From Mucilaginibacter sp. SG564 (lineage in GTDB: Bacteria; Bacteroidota; Bacteroidia; Sphingobacteriales; Sphingobacteriaceae): a DNA stretch of 64,000 nt. This document shows positions 9,636 to 52,056 of the stretch, in pieces. The first letter of the stretch is position 1, and each line of letters begins with the position of its first letter. The translations under genes and the position numbers were made by a program. Where the stretch lies: NCBI RefSeq assembly GCF_013149275.1, contig NZ_JABGNA010000001.1, forward strand, positions 558,001 to 622,000, written 5' to 3'. The notes below the pieces were generated by a model, which was given only the letters and a program-made list of their open reading frames with translations, was not told the origin of the DNA and searched no databases.

Positions 9636-10712
9636 TTAAAAGCTAAACGCCAGTGAAGTGGTTAAGGCGATGTTATGATCCAATGTTTTGTTGTTGTTAT
9701 TGACAAAAATATCGTCTTTGCTATTCAAACTCCTAATCTCTGTTCGCCATGTTAAATTGCTGAGGATGTTATAATCTACATTTGCCGAAAAGCCCCATGT
9801 TTTAAAACCATTGGGTGTATTTGTAGCTATAATGACGCCATTTTTATCATTATAATATTCAGCCCTTACACCAATGCTGGTTTTGGACGTAGCCGCGTAT
9901 TTTAAGATCAGGGCAGATGTATACCAGGTGTTAAAATCTGATGATCCTTTGGTTTTTTGCTCAGCTCCTATATCAAACCCAAGTGTGGCCGCCCATTTGT
10001 CGCTTAACTGAAAAATGCCATAAAAATCATGGAAGTAACGCATTTTTCGCACACTATCCGGTTTATCATTTCCAATAAAGGTGCTGCTATTCAGTGTTAT
10101 TTTGGATGATGGTTTAAAAGTAACCTGTGTGCCAAAGGCCGGAGTGGTATTACCATCAATTCTTTGTATGCGCTGCCATCCATTCAGCACTAAGGCGCTT
10201 AAATACCATTTTTCATTTTGGGAGGTATAGCTCAGCCTCGCTCCGGTTTCAAAATAGGGTGAGTTTTCGGCAGCCAAACTGCGGCTAAGTGTTGGGTTAT
10301 CCTTGCCTACAGCACTTTCCCAACCAATGTGTGATGGCAATACACCAGCATCTATCCATAAATTATTTTTAGATGATAACCTGACACCAATATTAGCTTC
10401 ATAGATATTTTTGAGCAGGCCAGGTTCTGCAGAATAATTAGCATTCATGTAGGTACCGGTGGCAAATGTGAAATTCCCCCGCACTTTGTCAGAACTGTAA
10501 GCGGCTTTAATGTATGCCAGATTTAAATTAACCTCATTATTCCTGCTGAAATTGTATAAGAATGGCGGCATAGTATTGTTGAGTGGCCTGTTAAAATCAT
10601 AGTTGTAATAAGCTTCCAGGTAAGCACTTATGGTAATGGGAGAAGTTTTTGTTTCCTGTGCCATTGCACCGGCAGTCATTAATAATATTATTCCTGTAAT
10701 AAGTTTTTTCAT
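9636..10712 (-). CDS. Outer-membrane beta-barrel porin
   Basis: A 358-residue protein with a signal peptide (MKKLITGIILLMTAGAMAQ, cleavage after Ala18) and a terminal Phe (SLAFSF), the mark of outer-membrane barrel insertion. The body alternates amphipathic strands with aromatic ends. It resembles the porins (OprP/BBP2-type) that in many Bacteroidota sit at the end of kdpFABC potassium-ATPase operons. Here no kdpA/B/C precede it, only very small membrane ORFs. Likely a general or ion-selective diffusion channel. Confidence 0.8.
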   Translation of the reverse strand: MKKLITGIILLMTAGAMAQETKTSPITISAYLEAYYNYDFNRPLNNTMPPFLYNFSRNNEVNLNLAYIKAAYSSDKVRGNFTFATGTYMNANYSAEPGLLKNIYEANIGVRLSSKNNLWIDAGVLPSHIGWESAVGKDNPTLSRSLAAENSPYFETGARLSYTSQNEKWYLSALVLNGWQRIQRIDGNTTPAFGTQVTFKPSSKITLNSSTFIGNDKPDSVRKMRYFHDFYGIFQLSDKWAATLGFDIGAEQKTKGSSDFNTWYTSALILKYAATSKTSIGVRAEYYNDKNGVIIATNTPNGFKTWGFSANVDYNILSNLTWRTEIRSLNSKDDIFVNNNNKTLDHNIALTTSLAFSF

Positions 10713-13075: not shown

Positions 13076-13080
13076 AGCAC

Positions 13081-13208
13081 GAATTTCACTAATAAAAACT
13101 AATTAGTACGAATGGATGTGCATTAATTACATCCATATTATTGAACTGTGTGCAATTTCTATTTGCGAGTATCCATTCGTGCTAATTAGTTTTTATCCGT
13201 GAAATTAG
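13081..13208. repeat. Large imperfect inverted repeat between hscB and kdsA
   Basis: Two arms of about 38 bp (13081-13118 and 13171-13208) pair with only a few mismatches; both contain TAAAAACTAATTAG. The loop has its own small hairpin (GGATGT/ACATCC). It resembles the ATTTCAC-GAATT type intergenic repeats common in Bacteroidota genomes. Likely non-coding mobile or structural repeat. Confidence 0.75.
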
Positions 13209-13228
13209 TGTCCGGTATTTCCTATTCG

Positions 13229-25989: not shown

Positions 25990-26125
25990 TAGATGTGCAG
26001 ATGTGATCAGATGTGCAAATGTGCCGATATGCAAATGTGCAGATGAAAATAATTATACCTGATGATCTGATTTTGAGCATGTCTGTAAAATTACACATTC
26101 GTACATGATGGCATTCGCACATCAA
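25990..26125. repeat. GATGTGCAAAT-type dispersed repeat
   Basis: The gap between the helicase start and the thiF stop holds several degenerate copies of AGATGTGCAAATGTGC and its reverse complement. The same motif recurs at 32450-32527, 34243-34370 and 57920-57957. Non-coding. Confidence 0.7.
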
Positions 26126-27171
26126 AACTTAATCCCATTTTTTAAACTGTATTTTTCATTTTTTAAATACGGATCTGTCCATTGCAGGGCTATTTTGCTT
26201 CTTTGCCCCGTTTGGCAAATGAATATCAGTTTTTTGTCAAGAGGTATCATATCCGCAGATTCCTGTAGCTCGTACAGGGGGATATTTATCCCGCCAATAT
26301 TATAATCATCGAATTCATAGGTCTCGCGTACATCAATAAGACAGATGTCGTCAGGTGATTCTGCCAGCCAGTTGTTTAAAGTTTCTATGCTGATATCATG
26401 ATCTTTGGCTACTGTTTTATCAACAAGCGGAGGTGTTGAAACAACCTGCTTTTGTTTGGTTATTTGATAAACACTCATGCTGTTATCCAGTGCGTTCATG
26501 CTGAATAGTTTGCCGGATAAGGTTTCACCGAAACCGCAAATGATCTTGATGGCTTCATTGGCCATATAGGTACCGATGATACCCGGCAGTACACCGATAA
26601 CGCCTGCATCGTCACAATTCGGTACTTCGTCGTTAGGAGGGGGCTCTGGAAACAGATCCCGGTAATTTGGCCCGCCTTTATAGTTGAATACCGATACCTG
26701 TCCTTCAAACTTAAAAATGGAACCAAATACCAGGGGTTTGTTTAGGGCTACACAGATATCATTAACAAGGTAGCGTGTGGTAAAGTTGTCCGAACCATCG
26801 ATGATGATGTGGTATTCCTTAATAAGTTTTTCTGCGTTATCAGCATTTAATCTTTCCTGATAAGCAATCAATTCTACGAAAGGGTTAAGCCATTCCAGCT
26901 TTTGTTTAGCCGTTTCGGCTTTGGGTTTTCCCACATCGGTAATAGTATATAAGATCTGCCGGTGCAAGTTGCTCATATCTATCACATCATCATCAACTAT
27001 ACCAATATGGCCAACACCGGCAGTCACCAGGTATTGTAAAACAGGGCAACCCAAGCCACCTGCGCCGATCATCAGCACGCTGGCAGCTTTTAATTTTTCC
27101 TGACCGATTAAACCCAATTCTGGCAGTATGATCTGGCGGTTATATAGTTTCAGTTCATCACGTTCCAACAT
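26122..27171 (-). CDS. thiF: ThiF-family ThiS adenylyltransferase with rhodanese domain
   Basis: 349 residues from the ATG at 27171 (MLERDELKLYNRQIILPELG); the frame continues to 27246 but this start fits the family. The N-terminal adenylating domain has the ATP-binding motif GAGGLGCPVLQYL, then DDDVIDMSNLHRQILY. The C-terminal ~90 residues are a rhodanese-like domain with the active cysteine in FICQTGQRS. It adenylates the C-terminal Gly-Gly of ThiS and probably helps form the thiocarboxylate. Most zinc-binding cysteines of MoeB/ThiF are absent. It is the last gene of the thiamin operon. Confidence 0.88.
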   Translation of the reverse strand: MLERDELKLYNRQIILPELGLIGQEKLKAASVLMIGAGGLGCPVLQYLVTAGVGHIGIVDDDVIDMSNLHRQILYTITDVGKPKAETAKQKLEWLNPFVELIAYQERLNADNAEKLIKEYHIIIDGSDNFTTRYLVNDICVALNKPLVFGSIFKFEGQVSVFNYKGGPNYRDLFPEPPPNDEVPNCDDAGVIGVLPGIIGTYMANEAIKIICGFGETLSGKLFSMNALDNSMSVYQITKQKQVVSTPPLVDKTVAKDHDISIETLNNWLAESPDDICLIDVRETYEFDDYNIGGINIPLYELQESADMIPLDKKLIFICQTGQRSKIALQWTDPYLKNEKYSLKNGIKF

Positions 27172-50199: not shown

Positions 50200-50889
50200 A
50201 TGAAAAAACTGGTAGTGCTAACAGGCGCAGGTATAAGCGCCGAGAGCGGTTTAAAGACTTTCAGAGACAGCGACGGCCTGTGGGAAGGTTACGATATAGA
50301 AGACGTGGCAACACCGCAGGCATGGCAGCGAAACCCGGCTCTGGTACAGCAATTTTATAACGAGCGCCGCAAATCGGTATTAGAAGCGCAACCCAATGCT
50401 GCTCATTATGCTCTCGCCCAACTGGAAGAAAAATATCGGGTAACTATCATTACCCAAAACATCGATGACCTGCACGAAAGGGCTGGTTCCACCAATGTAA
50501 TGCACCTGCATGGTATTATAACCCGATCGCAATCAAGTATCGATCCTGAGCTTACTTATCCCATTAATGGCTGGGAGATTGGGGTGGATGAAGTGTGTGA
50601 ATTAGGCTCGCCCCTGAGGGCCCATGTCGTTTGGTTTGGCGAGGACGTACCCATGATAGGCCCCGCCGCGCGTATTTGTGCCGATGCGGATGTTTTTATG
50701 CTTGTAGGTTCATCCCTGGCGGTATATCCGGCTGCGGGACTCATCAGCTATGTGCGACCGGAGATCCCAAGATATATTATCGACCCAAAGATACCGGATG
50801 TAAGTGTGAGGGGCCAATTGATAAAAATACAGGAGAGGGCTACTGTTGGCGTACCTGCATTGGTAGATCAGCTTCTGAAAGATCAATAA
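50200..50889 (+). CDS. Sir2-family NAD-dependent protein deacylase, zinc-cysteine-poor
   Basis: A 229-residue sirtuin. NAD motif GAGISAESGLKTFRDSDGLW (residues 8-27), catalytic His in TQNIDDLHERAGS and HLHG, and WFGEDVP. The Tyr-x-x-Arg in FYNERRKSV is the class III signature for succinyl-type acyl groups. The zinc-binding cysteine pairs seen in E. coli CobB are replaced (HLHGIITRSQSSIDPEL; VDEVCELGSPLR); one Cys remains. Such loss occurs in other Bacteroidota sirtuins. Predicted desuccinylase/deacetylase in the cytoplasm. Confidence 0.9.
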   Translation: MKKLVVLTGAGISAESGLKTFRDSDGLWEGYDIEDVATPQAWQRNPALVQQFYNERRKSVLEAQPNAAHYALAQLEEKYRVTIITQNIDDLHERAGSTNVMHLHGIITRSQSSIDPELTYPINGWEIGVDEVCELGSPLRAHVVWFGEDVPMIGPAARICADADVFMLVGSSLAVYPAAGLISYVRPEIPRYIIDPKIPDVSVRGQLIKIQERATVGVPALVDQLLKDQ

Positions 50890-50992
50890 TTTAAGGGGTT
50901 AAGTAGTCATCTAAAAAGTGGGTTTACATGGTTTACACTTTTTATGGTTTGAATTACTATAATTATCTGAAAATCAAATATTTAAATATAAT

Positions 50993-51040
50993 TTACCCTC
51001 AAAAAGTGGGTTTACATGTAAACCCACTTTTTGAGGGTAA
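50993..51040. repeat. Perfect 48-bp palindrome
   Basis: 24-base half-sites (TTTACCCTCAAAAAGTGGG, then TTTACA) meet without a loop and pair perfectly, centred between 51016 and 51017. A shorter imperfect copy of the inner part, AAAAAGTGGGTTTACATG, lies at 50913-50930. It lies after the sirtuin stop. Confidence 0.9.
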
Positions 51041-51088
51041 GAGACCTCAAGATCAAGGGGTGATGTTATTAAATTAAAGAATTTTGCA

Positions 51089-51225
51089 AACCCCATGGGG
51101 TTAAAGCTTTGTAGTAAAAAAGTCGATTTTCATTCAGTGCCGTGGGTACTGCACTCAGGTTGCATACCTATGGTATGCTAAAATATTATTCTTTGTTTGC
51201 TACAAAGCTTTTACTCCTACGGAGT
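51089..51225. repeat. Composite element of nested small palindromes
   Basis: A 12-bp inverted repeat (AAAGCTTTGTAG at 51103, CTACAAAGCTTT at 51200) encloses palindromes at 51136-51155 (AGTGC/GCACT) and 51162-51178 (GCATACC/GGTATGC), and is flanked by AACCCCATGGGGTT (51089-51102) and ACTCC/GGAGT (51213-51225). Looks like a Bacteroidota intergenic repeat. Confidence 0.75.
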
Positions 51226-51339
51226 AGTAAACCTTTAATGACATTGCTCGTGTGAACTGCAAAACTTCAGAAATAATAATTTAAATCTGCCTGGCATTTT
51301 TAAAAATCACTAATTCGCTAAATCACTAATTAAAAAATA

Positions 51340-52056
51340 ATGAAAAAGTGCATATTCAATTGGAGCGGGGGTAAGGACAGCGCCATAGCCTTATATTATT
51401 GTCTTCAGAACCCTGATCTGGAGATCAAATACCTGGTTACCACTATTAATGACGCGGCCGACAGGATATCCATGCATGGTGTGCGTACGGAACTGCTGAT
51501 TAAACAGGCTGAGAGTATCGGCATCCCGCTATACCAGATCCGCCTGCCCGAGATGCCCGGTATGCAGGAATATGACGAGGTGATGCACCGCCACCTCATG
51601 TATTTTAAGAGCGAGGGTATTACCCATGCCATTTTTGGTGACATATTTTTAGAAGACCTGAAAGCTTACCGCGATGCCCGCCTGAGCGAGGTAGGTTTGC
51701 GAGGCATATATCCCTTGTGGAAACGTGATACCGGCGAATTGATTAGTGAGTTTTTAAGCCTTGGCTTTGGTACCGTGATAGCCTGTACCCAGGAACGTTT
51801 GGAGCGCATAGTAGGGAAGGAGATCAGCCCGGAACTGATTGATGCCCTGCCCGATGATGTAGATGTTTGCGGCGAGAATGGTGAGTTCCACACCTTCACT
51901 TTTAAGGGCCCGATTTTTAAAAATACGATACCTTACAAAACAGGAGTGAAGATTTTTAAAGAATATAAAGCGCCCCAAAATGCCGATGACTCCTGCGTTT
52001 CGGTAACTGATCAAAAACGCTCAGGATTTTGGTATTGCGACCTTGTTTTGGCATAA
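51340..52056 (+). CDS. Dph6-like ATP pyrophosphatase (diphthine-ammonia ligase family)
   Basis: A 238-residue N-type ATP-pyrophosphatase. The PP-loop SGGKDSAIALYY (residues 9-20) is followed by GVRTELLIKQAESIG and the COG2102 motif GEFHTFTFKGPIF. The name comes from eukaryotic and archaeal Dph6, but bacteria have no diphthamide, so the bacterial job is different and unknown. In this genome it sits in the B12-uptake region. In Bacteroidota such genes often occur with btu genes (my recollection), so a role in cobalamin or cobinamide amidation is conceivable. Confidence 0.82.
   Translation: MKKCIFNWSGGKDSAIALYYCLQNPDLEIKYLVTTINDAADRISMHGVRTELLIKQAESIGIPLYQIRLPEMPGMQEYDEVMHRHLMYFKSEGITHAIFGDIFLEDLKAYRDARLSEVGLRGIYPLWKRDTGELISEFLSLGFGTVIACTQERLERIVGKEISPELIDALPDDVDVCGENGEFHTFTFKGPIFKNTIPYKTGVKIFKEYKAPQNADDSCVSVTDQKRSGFWYCDLVLA

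Follow-up and report, generated by a model that had tools for sequence, protein, structure and literature searches.

The window analysed here, the whole 64-kb stretch of DNA, carries at positions 50993-51040 a palindrome composed of two 24-nt arms (50993-51016 and 51017-51040) that are 100% complementary with 0 nt between them, which bears out the perfect loop-less 48-bp palindrome claimed in a preliminary description of this DNA. It is the window's sole perfect spacer-free palindrome with arms of at least 9 nt, and the longest arms obtained in 60 dinucleotide shuffles of the window ranged from 7 to 12, with a maximum of 12+12 versus 24+24 in the real sequence. Upstream, the 18 nt of 51001-51018 recur exactly as AAAAAGTGGGTTTACATG at 50913-50930, with a gap of 62 bases before the palindrome; the partial copy that had been pointed out at 50913 is thus real. 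The palindrome had also been placed after a sirtuin gene in otherwise gene-free DNA. It is indeed intergenic, between a Sir2-family gene and a Diphthami_syn_2 gene, but this intergenic DNA carries repeats. One element within it has the 18-nt copy at one end and the palindrome at the other, and this palindrome is the right end of a non-coding intergenic repeat of about 120 bp, located at 50913-51032. The features of the locus are the following:

50200-50889, plus strand: Sir2-family gene, upstream neighbour of the palindrome
50913-51032, plus strand: complete element, assigned to the long class (99 bp from left GGG to right TAAACC); the dispersed family has at least 76 members in the genome
50913-50943, plus strand: left end AAAAAGTGGGTTTACATGGTTTACACTTTTT with AAAAAGTG/CACTTTTT arms, nearly invariant in 58 copies (partly a built-in result, most copies having been picked via the exact core)
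50920-50929, plus strand: box 1, within the left end
50930-50938, plus strand: box 2, within the left end
50946-50954, plus strand: box 3 by sequence, diverged here (GGTTTGAAT; family GGTTTACAT)
50972-50984, plus strand: IHF-like motif AATCAAATATTTA, at the family's commonest position for the motif
50993-51000, plus strand: TTACCCTC, element interior, putative template according to orthologues and flank test
51001-51032, no strand: element right end, 16+16 palindrome AAAAAGTGGGTTTACATGTAAACCCACTTTTT, from sequence comparison
51033-51040, plus strand: GAGGGTAA, flank outside the element mirroring 50993-51000, putative template-switch copy according to orthologues and flank test
51340-52056, plus strand: Diphthami_syn_2 (Pfam) gene, downstream neighbour of the palindrome

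Rfam searches gave no match at gathering score for window positions 50850-51345, where only far weaker hits, mostly to microRNA-type hairpins, were obtained, and no match for nine element loci. In the same way, a distant blastn search of a plasmid collection gave no match.

Two other inverted repeats were observed in the window. The first lies downstream in the same intergenic region, at 51097-51217 (GGGGTTAAAGCTTTGTAG...CTACAAAGCTTTTACTCC, 84% complementary, 71 nt apart). Repeats of this kind form arrays around the genome's only Y1_Tnp gene (locus L151), and this one may be a REPIN-like element of its own. The second, at 13078-13210, is a 40-nt inverted repeat (90% complementary, 53 nt apart) that is unlike the element by eye.

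A dispersed intergenic family with two end-to-end spacings

The core GTGGGTTTACATG occurs exactly 119 times in the 6.83-Mb genome (64 forward and 55 reverse), while its reversed control was found 0 times on either strand. With the left-end pattern, at least 76 distinct elements were counted in 88 overlapping loci taken from this genome, a sample that covers 112 of the 119 cores, the other 7 being outside; in L022, L050 and L264, the core is present without the left end of the pattern used. Uniqueness of the half-site had been proposed as a sign of accident, and the half-site is not unique.

Across 120 Mucilaginibacter genomes, this one included, the core was present at least once in 16. High counts were restricted to four of the 120, namely 119 in the own genome (G000), 121 in G080, 85 in G103 and 117 in G113. 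Of the single core matches inspected, those in G096 and G053 correspond to elements and those in G071, G009, G102 and G119 to other sequence, and few or diverged copies were found in G018, G048, G065 and G095. A paired-end pattern was present in 3 of 301 genomes of the taxonomic family, all Mucilaginibacter, and in none of the genomes from its 24 other genera among these 301; the pattern is strict, since G095, which has a diverged copy, scored 0, and G080 and G113 are outside the 301. Because high core counts are limited to four genomes and the paired-end pattern to 3 of 301, the high-copy family is narrow, and few or diverged copies extend to other Mucilaginibacter. No description of this element in Mucilaginibacter was found among the titles obtained from one literature collection.

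Some copies are accompanied by other repeats. L001, L003, L011, L020, L021, L040, L042, L047, L054 and L067 lie within a larger conserved block of about 250 bp that starts with a terminator-like AGAGGCTGTATCAT..ATGATCAGCCTCTTTTTT hairpin, and parts of the flanks of this block recur in G018, G048 and G065. A further repeat of roughly 80-100 bp adjoins the copies L021, L034, L035, L062 and L070 and recurs in all three relatives' stretches. Finally, two palindromes with the core GTAGAGACGTTGCATGCAACGTCTCTAC are located directly upstream of a sirtuin gene in another Mucilaginibacter assembly (L075, 1994-2211), and they start with GTAG, as known REPs do.

In the family plan, GGTTTACAT boxes occur three times in direct orientation, an IHF-like motif is present, and the right box is inverted or palindromic. 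Each of 58 sampled copies has the left end AAAAAGTGGGTTTACATGGTTTACACTTTTT or a near variant and a third box near +35, followed in these copies by an AT-rich middle with TTGATAATCAA and then the right box. The IHF consensus is WATCAANNNNTTR, which may not be what Bacteroidota proteins recognise. An IHF-like WATCAANNNNTTR motif was found in 33 of the 58 copies on one strand, 26 of them at one offset, and in 37 on either strand; it is absent from 25 on the first strand. When the middles were shuffled 100 times, the corresponding count averaged 1.8 and never exceeded 5, although this control does not take common descent into account. Inverted ends of 16 bp are present in copies of this clade. Of 13 copies from outgroup species, 7 have the right box in direct orientation only, 4 have it in inverted orientation only, 1 has both forms and 1 has neither, and several outgroup copies have lost the left-end pairing and kept the boxes.

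The copies are unevenly placed among genes. A crude ORF caller allowed 57 of the 58 sampled copies of this genome to be assigned by gene orientation, giving 26 convergent, 26 codirectional and 5 divergent positions. In a background of 477 gaps of at least 100 bp, from the relatives' stretches and the window, 17% of intergenic bases are convergent and 30% divergent, so that the copies show an excess of convergent positions (26/57, p 3e-7) and a lack of divergent ones (5/57, p 1e-4). The 65 element gaps of the relatives' stretches and the window gave 19 convergent, 36 codirectional and 10 divergent positions (p 0.008 and 0.005). The strand of the element relative to codirectional genes is not biased (13 vs 13).

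In the first sample of 58, copies measure either 106-108 bp (26) or 116-119 bp (32). The raw offset from left GGG to right TAAACC, uncorrected for an extra G in box 2, was then collected for 141 elements from four genomes. It is 88-90 in 59 and 98-101 in 73, whereas no element has an offset of 91-97; the remaining ones have offsets of 80 (1) and 74 (1, L277, probably a chance match of the loose pattern) or no right box by pattern (7). The end-to-end spacing hence has two classes, separated by about 10.5 bp. A single step may distinguish copies at orthologous sites, L017 being long where L252 is short, and L049 and L255 short where L234 is long.

In 30 orthologous pairs, identity in the element middle does not exceed that of the flank (0.738 vs 0.777), but the middle contains fewer gaps, with 1.9 vs 6.8 internal gap bases per 100 and 21 vs 48 gap openings. 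For a far-left stretch with 2532 aligned bases, the values were 3.2 internal gap bases per 100 and 21 openings. This comparison counts internal gaps only and uses 30 of 31 pairs, L061/L247 being left out for its low flank identity. The left boxes are 0.959 identical between orthologues, a figure raised by the core-based finding of copies. Moreover, the own copy L280, the decayed counterpart of the relatives' element L204, has undergone many base changes and yet its length is unchanged. Taken together, the fewer gaps in a middle of ordinary identity and the L280 copy point to a constraint that would act on the length of the middle and not on its sequence. Template switching could add or remove one box of about 10 bp and in this way generate length classes one helical turn apart. 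The two classes may also have arisen simply because a 10-bp box was gained or lost, helical phase not being under selection.

Origin of the perfect arms

The locus is occupied in G103, G080 and G113, and counting the own copy it has four different right ends. The conservation check at the same place that had been suggested thus finds the element at the orthologous locus of three relatives, with right ends that differ, and a recent insertion scar, an accident or an assembly origin, which had been considered for the palindrome, is unlikely. In G113 and G103 the right end is far from palindromic, while in G080 it is nearly palindromic with other letters. Since the own inner TTTACCCTC resembles the inner TTTATCGTC of G113 and TTTTCGTC of G103, the outer GAGGGTAA is probably the newer arm, and the near-palindromic end of G080 may leave the direction of copying at this locus either way. 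Another orthologous site (L069/L231/L257) resembles this one. There, G103 has an inner CTCATCATAAAGTG with a short outer arm, whereas in G113 the outer 16 bases CACTTTATGATGAGTT exactly complement the inner arm; this complementary outer arm is written into the flank and has two mismatches nearer the centre. In the own copy of this site, one new base is shared by both arms. These orthologues suggest that one arm was copied from the other.

Perfect 16-bp arms are found in 15 of the 73 long copies, the other 58 being imperfect. In six of the perfect copies (L070, L008, which is the window copy, L267, L276, L256 and L069), pairing runs 3-9 bases further without interruption. In the 20 copies where 15 or all 16 arm pairs are formed, contiguous pairing past the arms sums to 61 bases, compared with 12.2 +/- 5.0 in a flank-exchange control in which 0 of 5000 trials gave as large a value. 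The excess persisted when the window copy was excluded (53 vs 10.8 bases, 0/5000 as large). A mirrored flank is not needed by selection on the hairpin but is predicted by template switching. According to PMC8604942, this process makes the arms alike and inverts spacers, and PMC8794818 reports that perfect hairpins can arise from it. Spacer inversion also fits the direct and inverted states of the right box in the 13 copies from other species.

In the proposed mechanism, the right end of the element would start as a quasi-palindrome. During replication, the polymerase would switch template within the right-end hairpin and copy the inner arm outwards, and such copying would account for both the identical arms and the 8 bp of mirrored sequence in the flank, as judged from the orthologues and the flank test. 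The perfect symmetry of the arms is thus most likely secondary, arising from strand switching in the hairpin. The whole reading, in which template switching during replication perfected the hairpin of an old dispersed element, 8 bp of flank included, is given a probability of about 0.8, whereas the architectural role discussed below is by itself rated less likely than not.

Another possibility, considered rather unlikely, is a true MITE with inverted ends AAAAAGTGGGTTTACA, moved by the transposase of another element and having the palindrome as one transposase site. The copies are short (about 106-120 bp), dispersed over at least 76 intergenic places and essentially non-coding (2 of the 58 sampled own copies overlap an ORF, a short one by the crude caller), and they have 16-bp inverted ends in this clade. 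An origin by transposition is likely because the element is dispersed. When 64 elements of three relatives were compared with the sampled own copies, both flanks matched for 24, one for 5 and none for 35, although some of these 35 may have decayed own copies, as L204 does. On the contrary, target site duplications of 3-9 bp showed no excess over 300 shuffles, though old copies could have lost one; 3-bp inverted flank matches were slightly above expectation (19 vs 11.4, a value reached in 3 of 300 shuffles). A model search over overlapping loci, 1.75 Mb in total, gave 192 matches, of which 185 span 80 or more model positions; the 7 partial ones do not pair up around any gene, and no autonomous transposon sharing the ends of the element was found in these loci. 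The right box is not inverted in 7 of the 13 outgroup copies. A clean empty site was not found either in 36 comparison rows, some of them repeated: 35 were occupied and the only element-free one, L208 of G080, matches a messy tandem repeat at window positions 26020-26130. All 21 flank-matched pairs were occupied, a biased count given that the relatives' stretches were centred on exact cores. Since the searches yielded neither a target duplication nor an autonomous partner, an Rfam match or a clean empty site, no membership of MITE, Correia or REP elements is claimed.

Several comparisons concerned repetitive or possibly rearranged DNA. Near the position of the G080 element, the window harbours an 8-bp tandem repeat (AGATGTGC, 6.6 copies, 25991-26045). 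No own-genome counterpart of L214 was found beyond repeats. For L224 and L242 (element copies of G103 and G113, near 10000), the two flanks match different own contigs, and these loci are possible rearrangement breakpoints.

A terminator or RNA-stabilising hairpin, kept by RNA selection through compensatory changes, is distinctly improbable as an explanation for the arms. The preliminary description had proposed a strong terminator, and at the window copy part of this stands: the hairpin is strong on both strands (-34.5 kcal/mol), and three of four terminator-like matches are the palindrome hairpin on the minus strand, but on the plus strand its T-run sits within the stem. Copies are also biased to 3' gene ends, and pairing is kept through arm changes. 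Nevertheless, perfect 16-bp arms are missing from 58 of the 73 long copies, the symmetry enters the flank past the element, which hairpin selection does not require, codirectional copies have no strand bias, and several outgroup copies retain the boxes after losing the left-end pairing. A terminator role is possible for the window copy and poorly supported for the family.

It is very improbable that the element is a REP or REPIN copied by a RAYT (Y1) transposase. Its palindromic ends in inverted order, intergenic location and many copies would agree with this, but the single Y1_Tnp gene detected in this genome has another repeat, CTACAAAGCTTTAACCCC, on its flanks, and no GTAG/CGTC tag was seen at the ends by eye; the RAYT association was rejected on account of these other repeats around the gene. 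Finally, only the perfect symmetry would speak for chance, for faulty assembly or for a local operator serving a single gene, and this option has a virtually negligible probability in view of the 119 cores genome-wide, the orthologous element in three other assemblies and the shuffles that never exceed 12+12.

Putative architectural role and related systems

Repeated boxes, a constrained spacing, an IHF-like motif and a position at gene ends lead to the tentative proposal that the element acts at the DNA level as a site bent by an IHF/HU-like protein near 3' ends of genes. Such a protein would bend the element and bring the boxes of both ends on one face. The site for a dimeric protein suggested earlier survives in an altered form, as a predicted protein site with repeated boxes and conserved end-to-end spacing. 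The direct right box in 7 of 13 outgroup copies is a state that a strict two-ended complex would have to tolerate. A broader and rather doubtful proposal sees in the copies a set of predicted, helically phased IHF/HU-like sites spread over the chromosome at converging gene ends, which template switching would edit by whole turns, with one 10-bp box added, removed, flipped or mirrored and the phase kept.

The copies represent natural replicates of one quasi-palindrome at orthologous sites of four related genomes, so that it becomes possible to count in bacteria how often hairpins form, lengthen, flip and decay through template switching. They also caution against taking compensatory changes in the arms of such repeats as necessarily a sign of RNA selection. 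In addition, the two spacing classes and the smaller number of gaps than in the flank offer a direct test between protein-built chromosome sites and mobile debris.

Several known systems share part of this organization. One is the RIB/RIP elements (BIMEs with an IHF site) of E. coli, the subject of a 1993 paper by Boccard and Prentki. Their palindromic units on both sides of an IHF-type site resemble the architecture seen here, where the motif is IHF-like by sequence, and both kinds of element are found at 3' ends of transcription units, as judged here with the crude ORF caller from the 26 convergent, 26 codirectional and 5 divergent positions of 57. They differ in that REP units were not seen here and in the phylum.

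REP/REPIN sequences are likewise short extragenic palindromes in many copies. They carry GTAG or CGTC tags (PMC3733652), whereas here no tag was seen and no RAYT gene was found flanked by the ends of the element. Quasi-palindrome correction by template switching (PMC8604942, PMC8794818) has in common with the present case the patterns of arm homogenisation and spacer inversion; the difference is that many copies of one element are involved here and the changes extend into flanking DNA.

In parallel, the Correia/NEMIS elements of Neisseria exist in forms of about 107 and 155 bp with inverted ends, the 155-bp form containing an IHF site and being almost exclusively intergenic (PMC2229807). The present element resembles them in its two size forms, its inverted ends in this clade, its IHF-like motif in 33 of 58 copies and its intergenic location. 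In contrast, their TA termini with target duplication were not seen here by flank composition and the duplication test, and their sizes differ by a 50-bp block, instead of about 10.5 bp, when compared by description. In outline, a DNA-level architectural site, which is the best-supported guess for the element, would work like RIB/RIP or Correia elements.
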